Source: Bryum argenteum
Lineage: Eukaryota > Streptophyta > Bryopsida > Bryales > Bryaceae
DNA length: 64,000 bases
Direction: 5' to 3'
NCBI GenBank assembly: GCA_037043015.1
Contig: CM073324.1
Coordinates: forward strand, 15,831,013 to 15,895,012
Shown here: piece by piece, positions 33,100-52,303 of the stretch
How positions within the stretch are numbered: the stretch's first letter is position 1
How the letters are laid out: each line of letters opens with the position of its first letter
Notes under the pieces: model-generated
The model's input: only the letters and a program-made list of their open reading frames with translations
What the model was told of the DNA's origin: nothing
The model's database searches: none
Translations under genes and position numbers: made by a program

Positions 33100-33100
33100 G

Positions 33101-33131
33101 ACTACTAGAAAACAGGGGGTAGTGTGACTGG
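33101..33131 (+). repeat. CACTA left terminal inverted repeat
   Basis: Perfect 31-bp inverted match to 52272-52302, starting ACTACTAGAAAACAGG. The preceding base is G where CACTA ends normally have C. Confidence 0.95.
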
Positions 33132-34140
33132 CCACTATGACTGAAAATCATAACAAATGGCCTTTTTGGGCCTGGATGTGTTTGTGACTGAGGTGACTAT
33201 GATGTGTGGTGAACATTGAGTCGCTCGGGACATTGCATATGTGACTACGGGATGTTCCCAAGGGCTGTTCCCATTGACTTTTTAGGGACCTCGTTTCGGG
33301 CTGCCCGATGGCACCTGGATTATGTGACTAAACTTTGTCACTTCGTGGTCGGAAAAAGTGACTGAATGTTGTCATTGTTAAAAACCGATCACTTTTTATT
33401 TGTGACTAGCGGTTTGGTGATATGGGCTGAGGTTCTTAGTTACATTTTTCACGAATGTGACTACTCTCGATCGCACAAATAGTCTTGACATGATGATCGT
33501 ATCACACCCGAGTCACTTCCGGAAAACCATGTATGTATGTAACTAAGCGCAGTCGGATAAATCCGACAGAGCGGAGTCATTTTGTGTATGTGTGTGTCAC
33601 ACACATGTCATCTATGTTCCGATCGGTGACCCTATATACTCACATTTGGAGGTTATATTTTATAGGCGGCACAGCATGTGACAGCGTATAGTCATATCTG
33701 CAGTAATCCCTGACTATGGGGAGTTGTGTTCAGTTATAATTATGATGAGTACTAGTCAGATTATCGGAAGTATGGGACTGAGTCTAGTCATACACATGAT
33801 GAATCTGATTGAATGCAGTCACATCTTGTTGCTTCTGTTACTGACAATAGTCATATTGTCGATGAGATGTGATTACTTATAGTCACACCTTGTACATTAT
33901 GAGACTAAGTCTAGTCACATCGGTGCTGGAATCTTAATCGAATGCAGTCACATGTTTTATTCCGGTGACTGTAATTAGTCTTACTATTGACAACCTCTGA
34001 TCAGTTGTTGTCACATCTTGTCCGTTTTGTGACTAGGACTAGTCTATAGTCTGGTCGCACGGCGACGCTTAATAGTCAGACTGCTAGATGACTAAACACA
34101 TCGATGAGATACTAAAAATGACTAAGACTCGAAAAATGGA
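33110..34140. repeat. CACTA left subterminal repeat region (GTGACT/AGTCAC words)
   Basis: About two dozen copies of GTGACT, AGTCAC or one-base variants occur in both orientations in 1 kb. In En/Spm such subterminal words are bound by TNPA. Similar clusters recur inside the element at about 34660-34760, 36190-36240, 37340-37580, 39000-39090, 40480-40680, 45700-45790, 50560-50660 and 52160-52290. Confidence 0.8.
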
Positions 34141-36381: not shown

Positions 36382-38773
36382 CTCTCCTTCTGATCGGCCT
36401 GCGTGGCTCTTCTTCTGCACCTTGCTGCGGCTTGCCTTCCGCGCCTCAGACTCCTTCTTCTTTCGGTCTTCCTTTATCACTTTAGTCATATTGTGCGAGA
36501 ACGGAGGCGGACATCCGGGGGGGCACCGTCCACCTTTGAGGATTATCTGCTTGGTGTGGTACCGCTTCATCCGCAAGTGGTCCATCATGACCTTGTGGAA
36601 GCCTTCCTCCGATAGTCTTCCCAACCCCCCACGGTACTCGGTGATGGCATCGACTTGGGCTTTGATATCCAAGAGCATCGCCTTGTCGTGAAGTTTGTAG
36701 TTGTCGATGCTGAAGTCGACGTTCCTGCTGTATCCTCGCAGAGTTGTAAAAAACTTCGACCGGTGCAGCCCTGCGGGATTGCCTGTCGCATCCACCTCAA
36801 CCCAGATGCGCTTGCCGGACTCTGTGGGCTTCACCTCGGCCCTCGCCCGACCCTTCCTCTTCTGGTCCCGGTCGTAGCCTGCAGACCCCCCGGATGAGGA
36901 TGCCATGAAGGCATTAGGACCTCGCATCTTCAAGACCTCGAGGTCCTTCTTCGCAAGCTCCCTCTCAGCCTCCAAAATTGCCAGTGCATGAGCATCTGCT
37001 GTAGGGAGCTCCTCGTCTTGCTCGTCCTCCTCTGCCACATCTTTGTCTCCTGACATCTGAGAAATGTCTTCAGTTCCGTATATGTCCTCGTCTGAATACA
37101 TCTCCTCGTCCTGCAGCTCTTCCGACATCTCGATCGACGTCCTTCTTGTTCGCGGCTTAGAAGCCGATGGTGGTTGAGGTGGTTTTCCGGGCTGTACACT
37201 CGGGAGCTTGCCGGAACTGTCCCGCTCAACAATCCCCCACTCCTGCGGTTTACACGACCTCTGTTTGCCCTGCATCGCAACGACGTGCAGACAACATGAA
37301 TTACAACATGTATTTCGGCAAAACAACATGCCAGCAAAAGTTAGAGGACCTAGTCACACTGTGTGACTTTGTTTATGACTAATACTAGTCACATTCAATA
37401 CAGGTTAGCAGAAGTGACACGACCTAGTCACACTGAGCGACTATGCGTGTGACTGATTCTAATCACATTCAAAACAGGTGAGCAAAAGTGACACGACCCA
37501 GTCACACTGCGCGACTATGTGTGTGACTCATTCTAGTCACATTCAAAACAGGTGAGTAGAAGTGAAAGGTGACCAAAACTAGTCAGAGTGACTGTGCACT
37601 CACCCTGGGTTGTTTAGAGGCTGCTGAAGCCCGATGCAACTCCTCTCCCGCCTCCTGATTGCTCTTTACTAACCGGGCTCCCCTACGGGGGGCTGAAACA
37701 TCCCTGCTATCCTCAAACAACCCTGTTAATAGCGTCGACGCGGAAGCCAGGATCTCGGTTGTTATTGGCGGAAAGGTCGCAATTGTGCAGAAAACATCAC
37801 GAATGCCATCGTCACTTAAATTTGGTACTCGTTGCACGACATCTGCTACATCGTTTGCTGCGGATGGTGAAGGAATGGGAGAGGATGGCGGGGATACAAA
37901 CCTCCCTGTCGCCTTTTGTTGTCGCGTCACTCACTTGGGGGGGGGGTAAGACGGGGACAGTGCACTCTTCTTCCCCGCTAACTTCGATGCACGTTTGCGT
38001 GGAGGTGATGCTGCCTCTTCCTCACTCACAATCAATGGCTCCACAACATTAGCAACAGGGGTGAGACTTGGCAATCCCAACTCCTGCAGTTTTGCTTGAT
38101 TGATCGCCAAATTCTTCAACTTATTGATTTCGATTTGCACCAGCGGTGCATCCTCTTCAGCAGCTACAGTCTTCTTCGCTCTTGCCTTTCTCGACCTGCG
38201 CTTGGCCCCGGAGTCGCTGGAGGCGCTGGAGTCGGAGGCGCTCGAGTCGGAGGCGCTGGAGTCGGAGTCGCTGGAGGCCTCCTCCTCCTCCTTGTAGTCG
38301 CTGCCGTCGTCCTCTTTTTTGCTGCTGCTGTCCAAGTCACCTCCGGCGCCTTCGTCACCTTCGGCGCCTTCGTCAGCTTCGTCAGCTTCGGCGCCTTCCT
38401 CACCTTCGGCGCCTTCCTCACATTCGGCGCCTTCTGTGTCTCCTTCGGCGGCGTCCTCAGATTCTCCTTTACCACGGTCCTCGTCTCCTTCGGCGCCGTC
38501 CTCGTCTCCTTCGGCGCCGTCCTCGTCTCCTTCGGCGTCGTCCTCGTCTCCTTCGGCCCCGTCCTCGTCTCCTTCTGCGCCGTCCTCTCCTTCTGCGCCG
38601 TTCTCTCCTTCTGCGCCGTCCTCTCCTTCTGCGCCGTCCTCTCCTTCTGCGCCGTCCTCTCCTTCTTCGATCCTGGTGTCCTCTTCCTCGTTCGGCGCGT
38701 CTGCTTGGTGATTCTTCGCCGCTTGATCAGTTTCTTCAAGCACTATTGCCGATTGATTCTCCGTGGTCGCCAT
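36382..38773 (-). CDS. Acidic-repeat protein with conserved middle domain, possible TNPA-like factor
   Basis: The start is ATG 38773 (MATTENQSAIVLEETDQ). The first ~150 residues are mostly GAEGDED-type repeats. Ser/Asp-rich and basic parts follow to 37934. There, either an in-frame TGA (37931-37933) interrupts the frame or an intron begins, since the sequence also fits a donor (GTGAGTGAC); a nearby run of ten G makes a slip possible. Coding resumes at 37930-37606 (VQRVPNLSDDGIRDVFCTIA) and stops at a good donor (GTGAGTGCAC). An acceptor at 37270 opens exon 37269-36382, whose middle (TTLRGYSRNVDFSIDNYKLH; GGLGRLSEEGFHKVMMDHLR) looks like a folded domain, followed by a Lys-rich tail. This reminds me of the small DNA-binding partners in plant CACTA elements, without a firm match. 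A further exon near 36079 is in phase. Confidence 0.5.
38330..38690 (-). repeat. GAEGDED/GAEGE coding minisatellite
   Basis: Short in-frame repeats (15-21 bp) encode GAEGDED, GAEGE and EDGAEG strings in the acidic N-terminus of the preceding gene. Long ORFs on the opposite strand here are shadows. Confidence 0.9.
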
Positions 38774-39543
38774 TGCTGCACCTGCAAGAAGCTCTGTAAA
38801 AACGAGCTGTAGCCCAAGGCGCCATTTCAGCCATAGCCGCGATCGCCCTCCTTAGACAGTCACTTCAACATCAATTCGGAGAAATGATTGTTCAAAATTG
38901 AACGGCCGTTGTAGACCCCTTTTTACTCCGCCGCCATCAGCGCTAATTACGGCCGCCACCGCCATTAATGCTGCAGTAATAGCACGAGGCGGCCCATACA
39001 GCGTGACTTGTCACAGTCACGAATACTCGATGACACTCATTGCAGTCACGAAATACTTGAGGTGACTCTACCCAGTCACAGGTACTCATTGGCCTAAATT
39101 CACTGAATTTCTAGCTTTTTGCGTCGAATGATGATGGTGGATTTGAACACCCGTTTCGGCATAGAGTATCAAGTCTCCTCCTTCTTGCCTAATTTTGAGT
39201 CTGAAGTTCCAAATCATACCCTGATTGTCTTCCATTTGAGCTCTTGGATGTTGTCCACATACTTCTAAATTGCAGGTACGTACTGGATCGACGCATGCCG
39301 ATGACATGTGAGGAAAACTTATCATGAATTGTGCATTACGTTAGACATGCTCTGACGAATTTGTTATTCTGATACCCCTCACACTTGCGTCATCAACACT
39401 CTCAAGCAGGTATTCAAAGTCTCCAACCTCCCTCCCTCTATCAGTTTTGGAGTTTACAGTTTTGGAGTTCACATTCACATGTTGTATGTCGATGAGATCA
39501 AATTTGATGTTGTCATATTTTGTTGATAATGTGATTTGTATTC
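38774..39543. promoter_or_regulatory. Central bidirectional promoter region of the CACTA element
   Basis: The leftward gene starts at 38773 and the rightward gene at 39544. The 770 bases between contain a block of AGTCAC/GTGAC words (about 39000-39085). Such words would let the element's own DNA-binding protein act on this region as well as on its ends. The regulatory reading is inference from arrangement. Confidence 0.45.
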
Positions 39544-40430
39544 GTGATGGAGCACATCTCAAGGCCCGAAGCCACTTTCAATGGATCTTTGCATCTCAAA
39601 GAATTACTCCATGACCTGCGGTTGTGGGAGATCGAAGAACAAATTGCCGACAGGCGGGCATTGACGAGGTACCCCTGTCCGTGTCGGATGTGCATGGGAG
39701 GCAAGGTCCTTCTTCGACGGAGCCTTCGGGTTCACCTACGCAAGTTTGGCCGCGATCCAAATTTCACCAAGTCTATTTTGGTAAGCATCCATCTCTCATG
39801 CACGTACACATCATTTCTGCTCCAATATTTGCTGAAATCGTCGGCTTCTAGGATTCGAGGCGGCCCTTTGTACAGGCAGCAACCATGGCCGCGTTGCGAG
39901 CCTTCCTCGGTACAACAAGACCCCGCCCATCACTCGCTACTTCCGACCATGAGTCAAACATGATTGTGAAAGGAGAGTACGGGCAGTGGAGGCCCGGTCC
40001 CATTCCAAAGCTCCGCAAATTTATTTTTTGGGGTAGAGCCTGGGAAGTTAAAGTGTCACAATTTCCGTTTATGGGATGGGGTTTATTTGCTTTAGAGGCA
40101 GCAAAGGCTGGAGATGAGCTTCTACCGTTTGTCGGCCCAGAATTAGATGCACAAGAATTCCGAATAGCTCATCGTACCTCTCCACGTTTCCGGCGGTATG
40201 CGCTTGCTGCAACCGAAAAAATGTTCCTGAATGGGGATGTCAAACTCGGGAATGTTGCTGGATTTATAAATAGCAGCGAGGGGCGATCGGAAATCCAAAA
40301 CTGCCAATGGGATTTTGTGCCTCTCCCGGCGCCCTGGAACCAGAGCCATCATGGTTACGTAATGACGATAGCATTAAGGGATATAGTTCCAGGGGACGAG
40401 TTGTTTGCAGAATACAGGGTTGGGAAGTAA
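39544..40430 (+). CDS. Transposon-borne zinc-finger/SET-domain protein (two exons)
   Basis: Exon 1 (39544-39780) encodes CPCRMCMGG, then LRRSLRVHLRKFGRDP. This has the CxCxxC...H pattern of the transposase-associated domain found at the N-terminus of CACTA transposases. A GTAAGC donor at 39781 and a TTCTAG acceptor ending at 39851 bound a 71-bp intron. Joining to 39852 keeps phase into the ORF to 40430, giving 271 residues. That part is a SET domain: GWGLFALEAAKAGDELLPFV, then NVAGFINSS (in place of RFINHSC), NCQWDFVP, and IALRDIVPGDELFAEYRVGK with the C-terminal Tyr. SET domains transfer methyl groups to lysine, usually on histones. The NHSC core is altered, so activity is uncertain. ATG 39885 would give a SET-only product. 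It ends in its own stop 235 bp before the transposase frame. Confidence 0.8.
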
Positions 40431-42949
40431 ATATTTGTCTGTACACATGTACCCGTTAAGACAAGCACTAACGCTTTGGAATGCTTGACCAATCATTGTT
40501 AAATAATGACTAGTTCTAGTCACATATTTGTGATATGTCACTCCTCATAGTCGCCAAGTTTGATTCTCCTCAATAATATGACTACACTCTGTCATATCTA
40601 TGAAAATAATGACTGATTCTAGTCACAAGTCGTAAACTTCGTTACTGTGACTGTATCCGTTGTGATTGAAAATAGCTGGTTTCTCTATTCAGGATTGTTA
40701 TGACGATCCGAACCATCCTCCTGAGGCCGACGTTGCAGCAGCGATCGACGACCCTGCAGATGTCCTCCGCGACCATGCACCTACCATCCACAACCCTCCT
40801 CATGATGATCGTGTAGAGGACCCGGAAGCTACATTCGAGAACCCTCCTCCCGAGGCCGGGCCATCCAATGCACCGCCAGCAGATGCCGAAGTGGATCTCG
40901 ATGCGGATGATCACGAGTGTTTTCAAAGATACGACTCACTTGCCGATGATATCTTGAACGACCCCGGGTCGGTCGGTGCGAAGAAGAGAAGCGGCAAAGA
41001 ATTGGAGCCGAGTTTGAAGATGAACCAGATGAGGACTTTATGGCAGGAGCACAATCACCCCTATATCCAGGTTCATCGACGACATCACTACTTGCCACTT
41101 TATTGTTGTTGAACCTCTCTACTGCGTTTGGCATTTCAGCGAGCTGCACAAACGAGATACTTGTGCTACTGAAGGAGCTCCTTCCTCGAGGTAACACCCT
41201 ACCAGAGTCTCATTATGCAGCTACCCGGATGATGAGCAAGATGGGGTTGACATATGCTTTGATTCATGCTTGCACAAATGGGTGTGTGCTATTTCGTAGT
41301 GAACTAGCAGCGGCAACACAATGTCCCGTCTGCCAATCACCACGTTACATTCCAGGCTCAAAGCAGAGACCCAACAAGATCCTTTGTCACTTTCCTTTGA
41401 TTCCAAGGCTACGCAGGTTGTATCGCTGCAAACAGTTGGCAACCATGTGCACTTGGCACACATCAAGGCCAACACAACCAGAGAAGATGGAGTGTGTTCC
41501 AGATTCTCCGGCATGGAGGCACGTGAATACATTATTCCCAGACATAGCCGGTGAAGGCCGCAACATCAGTGGGGTTTGGCACTAGATGGCGTCAACCCCT
41601 ACTCCAATCTCTCCCTCAACCATTCCACCTGGCCAATCATTCTCTTAAACTACAACTTGCCTCCTTGGCTTGTGACAAAGACATTCTTTATCATGATGGT
41701 TTTGATCATCCCAGGAAAGGAGAGTGTTACGGCGAACAACATTGACGTGTACTTGGCGCCTTTGCTAGAAGAGTTGCTACAGCTGTGGGCTGGTGTGCAG
41801 GCATTCGACGCTTCCGCTCCTCTTGAACACAGATTGTTCACCCTGAAGGCCATACTCCTCTGGTGCATTCACGACTTCCCTGCGTATGGCCTCGTATCAG
41901 GGCAAGTTACAAAAGGGTATCGAGGATGCCCCGAATGTGGTCCATATGTGTCAAGTAGCAGGTCCTCCGCACTCGGGAAAAATTTGAATATGGGACACCG
42001 GCGATATCTTGCACCCAATCATCCGTATCGGAGACAGAAAGCAACATTTGATGGAAAATCGGAGACAAGACCCCCCCCCTCCACAGTTCACAGCAAGCGA
42101 GATTCTGCAGTTTGGTCGGGACAGGGAGGCTTGGACGGCCACAACAATCCAGCGGAGGGGAGTTCGGCATGCAGACGATCCTGTGCACGTTTCTGGCGTG
42201 AAGCGAACGAGCAGTCTTGTGAACCCGCGAAACGGTTCACTCTAGCGGGAATACGTTCCCCGCAAGGTTTAGCGCGTAATTATCAAGTTTCCATGGTTTA
42301 ATTAGTCTTTTTAGCTCATTTCGTAGATTCACGGGATACCCATGGTCTCATAAGAGGTTTTGGCACAAGCAGCCGTTCTTGTTCTAATTTATACCTAATT
42401 AGTATTTTTGATAAATGCCAATTTATTAAATGGCGAGTTTTAGTATGTTTTAGCAATTATGTGTTCATAAGTAGGGCCCGGGTTACCCCATTTCGCCTTT
42501 ACTTTCTACAAAACCCCTAATATGAAGTGTGGTGCCTTTAGCTTGCCTAATTAGTTAGAAGAAACTAGGGATGAAAGTCCGTCCAACTGGACGGATGAAA
42601 TCCGCCCAATTGGACGGATGAAGCTTTTTGCTTCAACCTCCCTGGATCAGCCAGGGAGGGGGGGAAGTTGGAGGAGAAGGCCGTTAGGCTGGTTTTTTGG
42701 TGTGTGCGTGTGTTTTTGAAGCGAATTTGTGAGATCCAGGTTGTTGTCGTGAATTTATGAGTTCTAGCTAGTATTAGTTGAAGAAACCCCAATTGTGTCA
42801 AGTAGTGGAAAAAATGTCCACGAAATTAGGTTGTGCGCTTGGGAGTAGAGTGTTGGTATGAGTGTGAAGGATCGAGAGGAGTCGCGATCGGAGGGGTGGA
42901 GCGCGCCGACAGGCTGGTGACGACGACGGAGCTTCGGGGTGGAGCAGGC

Positions 42950-43699: not shown

Positions 43700-46678
43700 G
43701 TGACATTAAGGAGGGAGTCCCTCCATTCCCTCTTTTGCTTGAGTAATTCATCACTTTGCGTTGGTAGATTGTGTAGTCATACGTAGTAAGAATTGTGGAA
43801 TCCATCCTAAAAAATGGCAATCTCCTTGCCAAAAAATTGATTGTTTGTTGATTTTTGTGATTCATGGTATCTTATGTGTGTGATGGTTGTCTAGTTGAAT
43901 GAATAAGCTTGCTGGAATGTTAGATGTGTAATTAGGGTGCTCCGTGTGTAAAGGGTAGTGCGGAAGCGCTGCCCAAAATTTGGGCTGAAATTGATAGGAT
44001 TAAGTAAAAAAATCGGTAATTTGTCATTAGCGCGGAAGCGCTGTCCGAATTTCACTAGGTTCTTGTTGTTCAAAGTTTTGTTCATTTGCTGAAGTTAGGG
44101 CTTGATTTGGAAGTATTGGGTCAAGCGCGGAAGCGCTGTCCAATTTTTCCGAGGAAACCCTAGTGTCTCATTCAAGTGTGTCTTGCATTGTAGAAATGAA
44201 TTATGAGCATGTGTATGGGCTTGGATTGCCTTGGAACCGAGAAATGGGGGTTTACAATTGAATCTACCATTTTTGTGAGCTTAGAAAGTGTGCTGTAGTA
44301 GTATAGTTTGATGCATTTTGGGAGTTTTTGCTTGAGTTTAGGTCCTATTTGACCTCATAATTGGGCCCAAAGCCCTAGTGGCTCAAGAGGTACAATTGTA
44401 GCCTCCTAGGCTCAATTTTGATGGGTTTTGGAGCTTGAGTCACTCATGGAATTGCAATTTATAGGGAGGATTGAGGTTACTTGTGTGATTGGACCTTTTG
44501 TTGATATTTGAAGGAGCATCGCATGTTTGCATGAGAATTTGGAGAATTCCATTGCTTGGAAGGAACTAGTAACACACCACCCCACGGCCCACTTGTGAGT
44601 TAAAAACCGGAACACCGGGATTTGACCTCACAAGTCTCTACAGACTGCCGTATTGGGAGGTGAGCACAGTGTTGTGCTTTTGAATTTGTTACACTCTTTC
44701 ATGGCCATGCATCCATCGGGTTCTATTTTTTCGTGCCGATTGTCTAACACATGTTGTGGGCTGCTGTATTTCAGTCCTTGATGATACGACATCTGTTGGA
44801 CCCGATGCACTGCGAGAAGAATATTACGGAGAATGTGTTGCGAACCATCTGGGGACAGAAAGATACGTTGAAATCGCGGCTGGACTTACAGGAAGCCAAA
44901 ATTTGGCCACATCTGCACCCACTACCAGGAAGGAGGCCAGGATCGATGATTCTACCGAAGGCACCCTACGTTCTGTCTAAGACAGAAAAGAAGGAGTTTG
45001 CGGACACCCTGCAGAAGCTACGACCTCCATCGTCGTACGTAGGAAGTCTTCGATCGATGGTGACAACAGACGGGGACCTTAGAGGTCTAAAGTCGCATGA
45101 CTACCACGTTTTGATGCAGCAGCTATTGCCTCTCTGCGTTCGGACGCTCCTCGATCCGACTGTCAGGGTGGCTATCATCCGATTGAGCCGCTTGTTCCAG
45201 CGGCTATGTGCGAAGACTGTTGCATTGTCGACCCTTGACGCCCTGTACGATGAGAGCATAGTGACAATGTGCATGATGGAGAAGGTTTTTCCTCCCTTCT
45301 TTGACGTTATGTCACATTTACCTATCCATCTAGTGCAGCAATTGCGGATTTGCGGCCCTGTGCACAACCGGTGGATGTACCCAATCGAACGGTTCCTGAA
45401 GACACTCAAGAGCTATGTCAAGCAACGCGCTAGGCCAGAGGGATCCATGGCGCGAGGCTACATACAGACTGAGACTATGGGATTCTGCACCCAGTACTTG
45501 CAGGGCTGCACTCTTAGCGAGAGACGAATCTGGGATGGTAACGAAGAACCCAAGGTCAGTGGCGAGGTTATAAGCGAAGAAAGGACGTCCCGAAAGTTAA
45601 CCATTGCGTTACAAGCATGGATTCACGAGTTTGTGCTTACAAATGCGAGAAATCCTTACGAGTTTCCGAGTAAAGTCCTTTTGAACTCACACATCACGCA
45701 TGAGTTACAAATATGACTCTTGTGAGTCACATTGAAATCATATGACCGATATCGATCACAATTTCCCCACCGTGATCGATCCGTGACTTTCTATATGTTC
45801 GGTCACAGAGAACACAAAGAGCGAGATGCGAAGAACGGGCGGTCGCTCGAAGGGAGCAAAATGAGATCACGCTCTCAAATTGACCCGGAGCAGGCTCGGT
45901 GCACAGCAGATGAGCCTTTTGTTGTCTGGTTCCCCAACGCACTAAAGGAGTCAATCAGTAGGGGTGATGACATTAAACCAGACGTGATGATGTTGGGCAG
46001 CCCTCCATCGTACAATGCGAGGAGTTACCGCGCGATGTACGCATACGGGAACCATTATCGTACTCGTGCGTCAGAGGTGGATCTGCTAACATGTGACAGC
46101 GGCGTAGCGGCCACATTTGCGACACCCTGCCGAGCCAGCTCCTCCGACAGGAACATCATGATGGGTAATGTTGAATACATAGGCTCCATCGAAGAAATCA
46201 TCGGCGTTGACTATGGCGGGTGGGAAATCATTGTCCTATATTGTAAGTGGGTGCAGGCAGTGATGGCGGGTCCACGGGCGACTATGAAGCATGACGAATA
46301 CGGATTCACTCTCGTGAACTTCGATCGGTGCATGCCACATTCAGCGAACTCATTTGCCTTCCCTGTTCAAGTCCAGCAGGTCTTTTTTGCAAATATTATC
46401 AGCCAAGCCGGGTGGAAGGTGGTTCTCCGCAAAGATCCACGTAGCACACGAGTCGCCTCGTCCACAGAGATGGCCATGCCCGAGATTCAATCCCTTCAGA
46501 TCGGAAATGCTTCAGATCATCCAAGCCTACTCCCAACCGCAGCCACGAGGGACTTGGCACTCGTTCCCCAACCATGGCGACGCAGCTGCTATGGCTGATC
46601 AAGACGATGTACGAGCCGCTCTACAAGCAGAAGAGGGAGATGAGGACTTCGAGGAAGGGGACCCGGAACATTCAAACA

Positions 46679-46712
46679 CCCTGTCCACACAGGCAGAAAG
46701 TTTTGACACGTG
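46679..46712 (+). repeat. 34-bp direct repeat, left copy
   Basis: Perfect copy of 50516-50549 (starts CCCTGTCCACACAGG, ends GACACGTG). It lies in the last coding part of the transposase (LSTQAESFDT). In this copy the frame runs on into the insert. Confidence 0.95.
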
Positions 46713-48317: not shown

Positions 48318-49900
48318 CTACGACTGTCCTTGTCGTCGTTGTAGAGGGGGTGATGAGTTTGCAAAATTTGTATAGTCCTCCCAAACTTGCTGATGAATGG
48401 AGATTTTGGTGTTGTCACAGCTGAAGCACTTCCACTTCTCCTTCCCGCTGCGGATCACCTCAAGGTACTCAGCACCAATGTTTTGCGTAATGCATGAAGC
48501 ACACCAGACCTTGGTACAGAAATCGCACCAGATCATGTCGCCATTCTTTCCGCACCAACTCCATTACTCGTTATAGTAATTTTTATCTTGTCAAAATTTA
48601 TAGTTTAAGTGAGGTGAATATTTGCATTTTTAGCCTCTGAGCTACACGCAGAGGTAAATATCTTAATATTCATACATCAAATTGGAGTGGCTACCATATG
48701 ATCCTCACCTTTGTGAAACATGTCTCACTCAGGAAATCGATCTTGCATATCCCAACTTGTAGGTGAGGATATTCCGTGACCGTAACCGGAGGCGGGAACC
48801 CCCCCACACGTAGTGCAAGCGTAAAATAGTATATCATAAGTGCTAGAACTCATGGCGCGCGGCTGTTTCTCAACAGTAGTTTGTGTGAGTTGTTTGAGTA
48901 GTACCCAAATAAGTGTTACTAGTGCAAAAGTTGAGAATGATGCACACGGCCTTCCAATGTTATAGAAGAGGAGAAGGTACTGGTCACTCAAACATCTCCA
49001 TAATACTGAATGCGATGGTTTCGGCAAAATTGATGGCTTATTCCTACATCCTTTTCAGTTTATGACACCTTCCATGGTAATCATACCCTCCACCATCAAC
49101 CTCCTATCCAATAGAATCTTCTAGAGTGAATTTTTAGCCGCAATTTGTAGTTTTCAAAAATGATTGTGGCATGGCTGACGTGATTCGAATATGAGATGAA
49201 TGTCCCCAAGTGGGGCTATTTTATATAATTCTAAGATGGTTGTCCCCTACTCCTGCCATCGTATGTTACCTGAAACCAAGACTTCATAAACCTTCCCCTA
49301 AACTCATCTTTTAACCTACTTAGCCACACTTGCTACGAGTCCCATGAGTGCAGACGCGCTTGTGACTCTTTTGCTTTGTTGTATCAGAAAATAGTGTATA
49401 GTCATTGATTTGCTCGTGAATGAGTCTTGGCTCACATGTAAAGCACGTCCAATTATCCCCATCAAGCACTTCCTCAAGGTAGCGCGGGCTGACAATACGC
49501 ACGATGTACACCATGTAGTAAGCCACATCGTAGTCGTCACAAATAACAAAGTTGCTGCCTAAACCGCACCAACTGCATGGCTCCATGTGGACTCTTCCTT
49601 CTTCACCTTCAATCTACAATTGATCTAGGAATGGCAACTTCGTGAGTACATGTAGCAACTTGTACAAGATCTGAAGCTATACATGAAACCAAGTTTTAAT
49701 GGCCTTACATATGTAAATGGGCTGAAGTAAAGCTTTTCTTCACAATAGATACACATGGCCACTCCAAGTGCTTAATGCTAAGAGATGTCACGGATGTCAC
49801 ACATGCGGAAGAGATGTACTCCACAGGTAGTACATTCAAAGAATGATTGGGTACCATCACTTGCAAGGCTGGCCTTTTGTGGTTCCATAGGTCTGAAAAT
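48318..49900 (-). pseudogene. Two decayed ADD-type (ATRX-like) zinc-finger modules
   Basis: Module 1 (49900-49320) has a first finger (FECTTCGVHLF, FRMC, then MCIYCEEKLYF in a nearby frame) and a PHD-like part (EPCSWCGLGSNFVICDDYD; SPRYLEEVLDGDNWTCFTCE). Module 2 (about 48850-48318) has YACTTCGGVP and SWCGKNGDMIWCDFC, then TKVWCASCITQNIGAEYLEV and KWKCFSC. Order and spacing match the ADD domain of ATRX and DNMT3, which reads histone H3 lacking K4 methylation. In module 1, three positions where zinc-binding Cys is expected read Tyr (CDDY, AYY, MVY). In module 2, a 7-base loss relative to module 1 removes the first Cys of SWC. Stops and frame changes occur throughout, so no functional protein is likely. 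Confidence 0.6.
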
Positions 49901-50515: not shown

Positions 50516-50549
50516 CCCTGTCCACACAGGCAGAAAGTTTTGACACGTG
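50516..50549 (+). repeat. 34-bp direct repeat, right copy
   Basis: Perfect copy of 46679-46712. The frame LSTQAESFDT ends here in TGA (50548-50550), followed by AGTCAC-type subterminal words. Confidence 0.95.
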
Positions 50550-50550
50550 A

Positions 50551-52271
50551 TCACGGGACCTGCAAGTATGACTGCATCTAGTCACTTTTTTAGATGACCA
50601 CTGAGTATGTGACTGCAACCAGTCCTACTCCTCGATTGACTACTACGAGTCACAAAAAACTTTGTACTTTTTCCTCAAAATGTAATGTAAATATATATAT
50701 CCCCTACGCAAAATTAGATTCGCTAATGAGAAAATGATTACAAAAGTTTATATTATATTAATCCCTACAGTCAAAAATAACTAGATTGTGGTCAATTTGA
50801 CGTTGGTCACGCTCCTTGTTACTAAATTTAGACTGTGCAGGTTTGGACCAGCCGCTACTTTGACTTGCATATTGTACAATTTTCCCATACCTTGCCAAAA
50901 TGTTAAATTAAATTGTAATAACTTCCAAAATCTACAAAAAATTAATATGATGGAAATGTACAAATAGCTATGTTGAATTATATTTAGCAAATCAATTAAC
51001 GGGTTTAGCTTCGCACTCTATACAAAACTATGAGATTTGCAATAAGAATATTATAAGATAATCGTCCACTGCTCCCGTTGGTTTTCAAATCCCAAAGTGT
51101 GTGTTCCATCTATGGCTTCTACAGCCAAAGGTAAAGTACAACAATCTTTAACTTCATGTACATTTTAAACCATTCATGCAATAGAAGGGAATCAAATTCT
51201 TTATTTAATATATCTTTCAAATGTATGAAAAAATAAAATATGGCCATGATTAGTAAAAAGTTTCACCAAATATTTTAGTACGAGTAGAACCAATGAGAAG
51301 TAAGAAACCCATAAAATTGGTTGAACTTTTATTATCATTGAGTTAGTAAATAATACAAATACAAAAACAAACATATATAGTTGTTCCATAGGCCTTCTCA
51401 TATACTCTATATATGCAAGGTGTAAAATTTAAAAATTGATTGGAATTTGAGTATAAAATTAAGATAAAGTTTGAAAGTGTCCACATTTGTAAAATATTGA
51501 GGAATAACAAGTATGTAAGATGTTCAAAAGTGGATTCAATTAGCATGACTTTTATATAGTAACTTTTGAAGTCACAAAGAAGTTAACATGAAGTTAATAT
51601 GATTCGAGAATTGTAAAGAAAAATCAAAGAGAAGTAACTTAGAGGTAAAACCAAAAGTCTTAAAACAAGAATTAATTATCGAGAAAGAATCTTAAACCCA
51701 ATAGATGTAAAAGGATTCTACACTAATTTGAAACCCACAACCCGACCATACTAAATTGCTTGTACAAAATAACCCACACTAAAATCTCTAAAAACCACTT
51801 CTGGCCCTAAGCTCACACTATTTAATATGCACCTACACCAATTGAAAACCCCGAAGCAGACCATACTAAATTGGTCGGAATAATAACCCACACTAAAAAG
51901 CCAAGAATCCACTTCTTTGCCCGAAAGTCATACTATTTAATAGGAACCTACACTAAATAGCACTAGCCAGACTAATTTCGAACCCAACAACCTACGCCAA
52001 TAACCATATTTCCTGCCCCCCCTGCCCAAAAACGACACTACCCAGACTATACGACACGATGTGCTCCACTAATTGCATAATCGACGAAATCAGACTATTA
52101 AACTGGAGAACCGCCCACACTATTTGTGTAGATCATGGGGAACGCGTTGACAGCTGCAAAATCTGTGACTGGAGTCAAATGTGACAGTATACTGTCACAA
52201 ATTCCGACACAGTCACATTTTCTGTGACTGCGATAATAATCTGCCGAAAAAAACCCCCCAGTCACAAGGGT
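50551..52271. other. CACTA right subterminal region, AT-rich, no gene
   Basis: AGTCAC/GTGACT words occur at 50560-50660 and 52160-52290. Between them lies about 1.5 kb of AT-rich DNA without ORFs of note. A pair of related blocks, CCATACTAAATTG with (A)CCCACACTAAAA, occurs at about 51747 and 51862. Confidence 0.6.
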
Positions 52272-52302
52272 CCAGTCACACTACCCCCTGTTTTCTAGTA
52301 GT
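52272..52302 (-). repeat. CACTA right terminal inverted repeat
   Basis: Perfect inverted copy of the left repeat. Here the terminal C is present (52303 on the minus strand), giving the canonical CACTACTAG end. Confidence 0.95.
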
Positions 52303-52303
52303 G

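Follow-up and report, generated by a model that had tools for sequence, protein, structure and literature searches.

In the moss Bryum argenteum, a lineage of CACTA transposons carries a SET-domain exon between a putative transposase zinc-finger exon and the TNP2 exon. The SET exon lies inside the transposase gene, where selection has kept it, a sign that the element may make a chromatin-modifying protein of its own. We propose that one 5′ exon would be spliced either to the SET exon, giving a finger-SET protein of ~258-276 residues, or, with SET skipped, to TNP2, giving the transposase. The finger would direct both proteins to a common site, most likely the DNA of the element or the transposase complex, and the SET domain would most likely methylate histones there, holding the element open against host silencing. 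We give this whole model, from the shared finger through histone methylation to resistance against silencing, about an even chance of being correct. A stricter form is possible but more doubtful: a split gene in which a DNA-binding exon serves either a transposase or a SET writer with a divergent NSS core, the writer being aimed at precisely those sites on which the transposase works, with self-targeted anti-silencing selected through the divergence of five subfamilies. If true, a transposon would here encode a chromatin writer with the same targeting finger as its transposase, which would bear on how transposons respond to host silencing via histone modification rather than DNA demethylation. 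SET-bearing and SET-less CACTA elements coexist in the genome and would serve as natural controls. The finding gains interest over an isolated fusion in that SET and transposase apparently use a common 5′ exon and that selection acts on the SET exon.

The copy analyzed here lies in a 64,000-nucleotide stretch of contig CM073324.1 (assembly GCA_037043015.1), which we call the window. Its features are as follows, in window positions.

33100-33136, plus strand: left terminal inverted repeat (TIR), starting GACTACTAGAAAACAGGGGG, arms 94% complementary
39547-39780, plus strand: finger exon, CPCxxC...H, Transpos_assoc-like, as open in the window copy
39781-39851, plus strand: intron 1, GT-AG, 71 bp, phase 0, predicted from sequence
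39852-40430, plus strand: SET-domain exon (PF00856) with its own stop
40681-40692, plus strand: candidate acceptor (ttctctattcag) of the transposase exon, in phase 0 with the finger exon
40693-41112, plus strand: start of the transposase exon (DCYDDPNHPPEA...), whose frame ends here in the window copy
40950-41585, plus strand: continuation of the transposase in a shifted frame
41555-42301, plus strand: TNP2 transposase (PF02992, E 1.2e-58)
44748-45716, plus strand: DUF4218, C-terminal part of the CACTA transposase (E 1.8e-37)
45726-46598, plus strand: DUF4216, C-terminal part of the CACTA transposase (E 3e-07)
52267-52303, minus strand: right TIR, starting CACTACTAGAAAACAGGGGG, which pairs with the left TIR

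The window element has the TNP2, DUF4218 and DUF4216 domains of CACTA/EnSpm transposons, and its TIR pair (matched arms 33101-33136 and 52267-52302) encloses 19.2 kb. The left end of this copy reads GACTACTAG and its flanks are TTC and TTG, unlike those of its family-A relatives. TIR and target-site duplication (TSD) evidence covers family A, in which end searches found SET loci enclosed by paired left and right termini. All nine SET-bearing relatives with both ends located have CACTACTAG ends and a perfect 3-bp TSD, as does one SET-less relative, bringing the total to 10 of 10 element-end pairs. Family-A relatives therefore belong to CACTA/EnSpm by their CACTA TIRs and 3-bp TSDs, which also show that the family has been mobile. 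Direct repeats of ~74 bp occur in the window element at 37325-37565, a position that is not subterminal.

Further frames share the element with the finger, SET and transposase exons. Two ADD/PHD-like zinc-finger frames lie on the minus strand within the same TIRs (48318-48563 and 49320-49613). On either side of them is one copy of a 34-bp direct repeat; the two copies, at 46679-46712 and 50516-50549, are identical and 3.8 kb apart. The best profile for the zinc-finger frames is DNMT3_ADD (E 6.8e-4, below the cut-off). Near-identical copies of these frames also sit within TIR pairs C3, C5, C7 and C8, four other pairs that bear SET, and there are at least 142 further matches at 29-52% identity. 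Immediately left of the finger exon, also within the element, is an acidic, repeat-rich long frame on the minus strand (37931-38851; EGDEDGAEGDEDG...).

The original prediction joined a finger exon to the SET exon over a 71-bp GT-AG intron in phase 0, and the coordinates of this exon pair are confirmed, with the splice itself predicted. The donor GTAAGC is kept in all 13 family-A loci aligned and the acceptor AG in 12 of them (not L020). Where intron 1 could be placed, it has GT-AG borders in 20 of 22 SET copies (not L024 or L047), with lengths of 70-124 bp; in subfamilies B-E it measures 91-124 bp and has the same place and phase as in family A. The proposed start of the first exon, ATG 39547, did not survive comparison, being peculiar to the window copy. 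Family-A relatives start elsewhere, usually at the counterpart of ATG 39581 (MDAASQQLLHDL...). In the window copy that ATG is out of frame because of two 1-nt insertions, which only L019 among the 13 copies shares. The family-A alignment thus rules out ATG 39547 as a start for the whole family, and marks the open finger start there as a copy-specific accident.

That the finger is of the CACTA transposase type holds in part. In agreement with the prediction, 6 of the 11 SET-less elements fetched have an unbroken TNP2 frame that starts with a similar CPCxxCxG finger (the remaining five are broken or start late). The Transpos_assoc identity (PF13963) is not borne out by score: the window finger reaches 17.1 bits against a cut-off of 27.7, and none of the seven fingers tested attains that cut-off (14.0-23.7 bits). 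The subfamily-C finger matches the U-box profile PF04564 (22.9 bits; cut-off 21.4), a match that we take as chance.

The SET domain itself is confirmed by profile, with PF00856 matching the exon at E 2.4e-10 and 41.2 bits against a cut-off of 22.4. All nine aligned subfamily members match the same profile at E 0.01 or better. A chance open reading frame is ruled out by this score and by the 73 SET loci described below. The letters of the SET stop are kept in 12 of the 13 family-A loci aligned. Subfamilies B-E, whose SET proteins are 45-51% identical to that of the window, keep the frame, splice phase, stop and core. Of 25 copies, 19 have the core NVAGFINSS letter for letter, and each of the other six differs at one or two residues. 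Across nine aligned proteins, some as little as 45% identical, residues G75-W-G77, Y116, N140 and Y188 do not vary; by comparison with the SET family in general, G75-W-G77 would be the GxG motif and Y116 and Y188 the catalytic tyrosines. The domain thus has the putative GxG and catalytic tyrosines of a SET lysine methyltransferase.

The original prediction also pointed to an altered NHSC core, which left activity open. The alteration is real: the histidine of the NHS motif is replaced in all 25 copies, by serine in 24 and by asparagine in one. Because the histidine is replaced in every copy, the change is not decay, and a decayed NHSC motif is ruled out. Among the nine aligned members, the SET exon gave no Pfam match to pre-SET or post-SET zinc clusters and no cysteine cluster. 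Such clusters are not present in all SET enzymes. With the NHS histidine missing and no pre-SET or post-SET cysteine cluster, enzymatic activity is a prediction only. The domain might instead be catalytically dead, acting as a decoy or scaffold that blocks host silencing without methylating, through binding to SAM, to a histone tail or to some host complex. We consider this unlikely, since the GxG, the internal tyrosine and the C-terminal tyrosine do not vary across the nine proteins and PRDM9 is active although it lacks the NHS histidine. The histidine missing throughout and the post-SET cluster not seen are what such a protein would look like, and catalytically inactive SET proteins having chromatin roles are described in the relevant part of PMC12886896.

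Our preferred reading, an active finger-SET protein made from the same 5′ exon as the transposase, involves a second acceptor. The original prediction held that the finger could alternatively be spliced to the TNP2 frame downstream, and candidate phase-0 acceptors for the transposase exon do exist. The acceptor is kept in 12 of the 13 family-A loci aligned (not L016), and candidates precede the TNP2 frame in three of four rows of A, four of five of B, and in D and E. Subfamily C has a weak candidate acceptor only, and AGs in other phases also lie near the TNP2 start, which counts against the model. In group X, which is SET-less, the finger is joined to TNP2 over a 94-bp phase-0 GT-AG intron; that this group keeps its TNP2 frames without SET also counts against the finger-SET model. 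No ATG lies near the start of the SET exons in subfamilies B-E, which therefore need the finger exon for translation. With the SET exon right behind the finger and in compatible phase, the arrangement reads naturally as a single 5′ exon that is alternatively spliced, which would yield finger-SET and finger-transposase as its two products; the splicing is what we infer from exon order and phase. In the window copy, the transposase is split across frames, whereas L011, L012 and L014 have a single frame running from the acceptor into TNP2. With its usual start out of frame and its transposase frameshifted, the window copy is evidently decaying, though its SET exon is intact.

Sharing of the finger could also serve the opposite end. 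A finger-SET protein might restrain its own element, by a repressive mark or by competing with the transposase at the ends, and thereby keep copy number tolerable. This strikes us as quite unlikely: among solved structures, a Set1-type enzyme (E 1.2e-6) and ASH1L come closest by profile, if with weak similarity, and Set1-type and ASH1L enzymes are activating. What speaks for restraint is that the finger is common to finger-SET and transposase and that finger-SET is placed as an alternative product, together with the precedent of the P element, whose transposition is controlled through alternative splicing according to the part of PMC4158355 concerned with it. The SET domain might methylate a non-histone target, such as its own transposase or a host protein. 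Non-histone proteins are substrates of some SET proteins, and this is the point in favor of a reading that we regard as highly improbable.

We searched the genome (258.8 Mb, 25 contigs) with the SET exon and obtained at least 94 matched stretches, which merge to at least 73 SET loci. At least 60 of the 73 have a finger ≤600 bp upstream on the same strand, at least 41 are followed by TNP2 on that strand, and at least 36 have both; these are lower bounds, based on 67 of the best 150 finger matches and 49 of the best 150 TNP2 matches, with strong or SET-near ones favored. Among the finger matches compared, none was located at 13 of the 73 loci. Seven of the 67 finger matches used have no SET, in a sample biased to SET-near matches that does not give a genome-wide fraction. 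Across loci L009-L038, the finger is present in 30 of 30, and the tnpB part of the transposase falls within the fetched flank in 26 (not L010, L016, L023 or L030). The SET exon is therefore carried by other CACTA copies, within TIRs in all nine family-A relatives noted above.

The SET exon is also under purifying selection, for which the original prediction had proposed a dN/dS test. By the Nei-Gojobori method, dN/dS between subfamilies D and E is 0.247 (0.146-0.380 from 2,000 codon bootstraps), and between A and C it is 0.195 at a dS of 2.85. Synonymous divergence is saturated in the other 8 of the 10 between-subfamily pairs, a point against the preferred model; the third-position excess is significant in all 10 (p 0.0014 or less). 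Within families the ratios range widely, as expected with many decaying or dead copies: 0.59 and 0.74 in A (six or seven changes; third pair undefined), 0.26-0.40 in B, 0.18-0.99 in C and 0.12-0.87 in D. One pair each in B and D gave 0.26 and 0.32. When four chosen pairs, one per family, were pooled, the synonymous excess had p 1.2e-6 and the ratio was 0.33. The case that would have undone the prediction, a SET frame confined to one decaying copy, is contradicted by the 73 loci, the five subfamilies and the selection. We give almost no credence to the SET exon being a passively carried host gene fragment of the Pack-CACTA type with no function for the element, because five subfamilies keep its frame, splice sites and core under purifying selection at no fewer than 73 loci, even if the window copy is decaying and CACTA elements do capture host sequence, as reported in the pertinent part of PMC13317346.

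No host ancestor for the SET domain has emerged from the analysis. In a TNP2 tree of 37 rows, the SET families form no single supported clade. The SET label needs two changes on this tree, whose deep forks are weak (59/27), and the topology would be compatible with one gain of SET and one loss in group X. Two CACTA relatives, L049 (C4:286400-288300) and L050 (C1:5425200-5427100), have a 94-bp finger intron and no SET exon; they possibly represent SET loss or a state before its gain.

The original prediction knew of SET-transposase fusions of other kinds, such as SETMAR, and of none arranged this way in CACTA. The novelty needs narrowing, as SET on DNA transposons is already in print for HarbingerS and MuDR and is also found in Helentrons; within the reach of the open-access literature, what looks new is only that SET sits in a CACTA element and uses a common finger exon with the transposase. 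We found no description of a SET-bearing CACTA element in that literature, a scope outside which Repbase Reports and most subscription papers fall. For the systems that follow, the comparison draws on those parts of the cited sources that describe them. HarbingerS and MuDR transposons of Phytophthora carry a SET gene (Kojima and Jurka 2014, Repbase Reports, cited in PMC12730594). Like the Bryum element, they are DNA transposons with a SET histone-methyltransferase gene, but by the description in the citing paper (PMC12730594) they belong to other transposase superfamilies and another host; the Bryum element is not HarbingerS, since its transposase is TNP2 rather than Harbinger. Helentrons likewise hold a SET domain in a mobile element, beside the Helentron replication gene, in the form of a separate intronless SET frame likened to Clr4 (PMC4067079). 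They differ in being rolling-circle elements whose SET frame stands apart, with no transposase finger in the portion of that source describing it. SETMAR, a primate host gene, combines SET with a mariner-type transposase (PMC8616336) and so resembles finger-SET in that a single protein unites SET with the DNA-binding part of a transposase. It differs as a host gene of mariner type, whereas the Bryum TNP2 element carries SET between its own TIRs and in many copies.

To our knowledge, VANC and TnpA are not SET proteins. VANC of VANDAL elements and TnpA of Spm are plant transposon factors that act against their own silencing (PMC10398659, PMC5735166); in the passages compared, that function is shown for them, whereas for finger-SET it is what we infer. 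TET/JBP genes are borne by EnSpm and other DNA transposons of fungi (PMC12730594). There too a chromatin- or DNA-modifying enzyme travels on DNA transposons, EnSpm included, but in the relevant part of that source the enzyme is a dioxygenase, not a methyltransferase, and the hosts are fungal.

Other repeats and gene clusters came to light in the same genome. A second repeat-borne SET class (L004-L008 and L086) has a core of ~354 bp and accounts, by match length alone, for at least ~50 of the best 150 scored matches. Its pre-SET-like part scores 19.5 bits with PF05033, below the cut-off of 29.1. Four frames of L086 and two of L088, which its match length places in a third class, gave no transposase profile, and no tie to CACTA was seen. 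A light-harvesting protein encoded in the genome has its closest solved matches, after one multi-domain chain (9vfj), in PDB 7xqp and 8htu from Physcomitrium patens, as would suit a moss. Clusters of short chlorophyll-binding matches, perhaps ELIP-like, lie at C5:8.16-8.41 Mb, C5:14.73-14.76 Mb and C2:25.06-25.09 Mb; ELIP-like clusters of this kind might be expected in a desiccation-tolerant moss.
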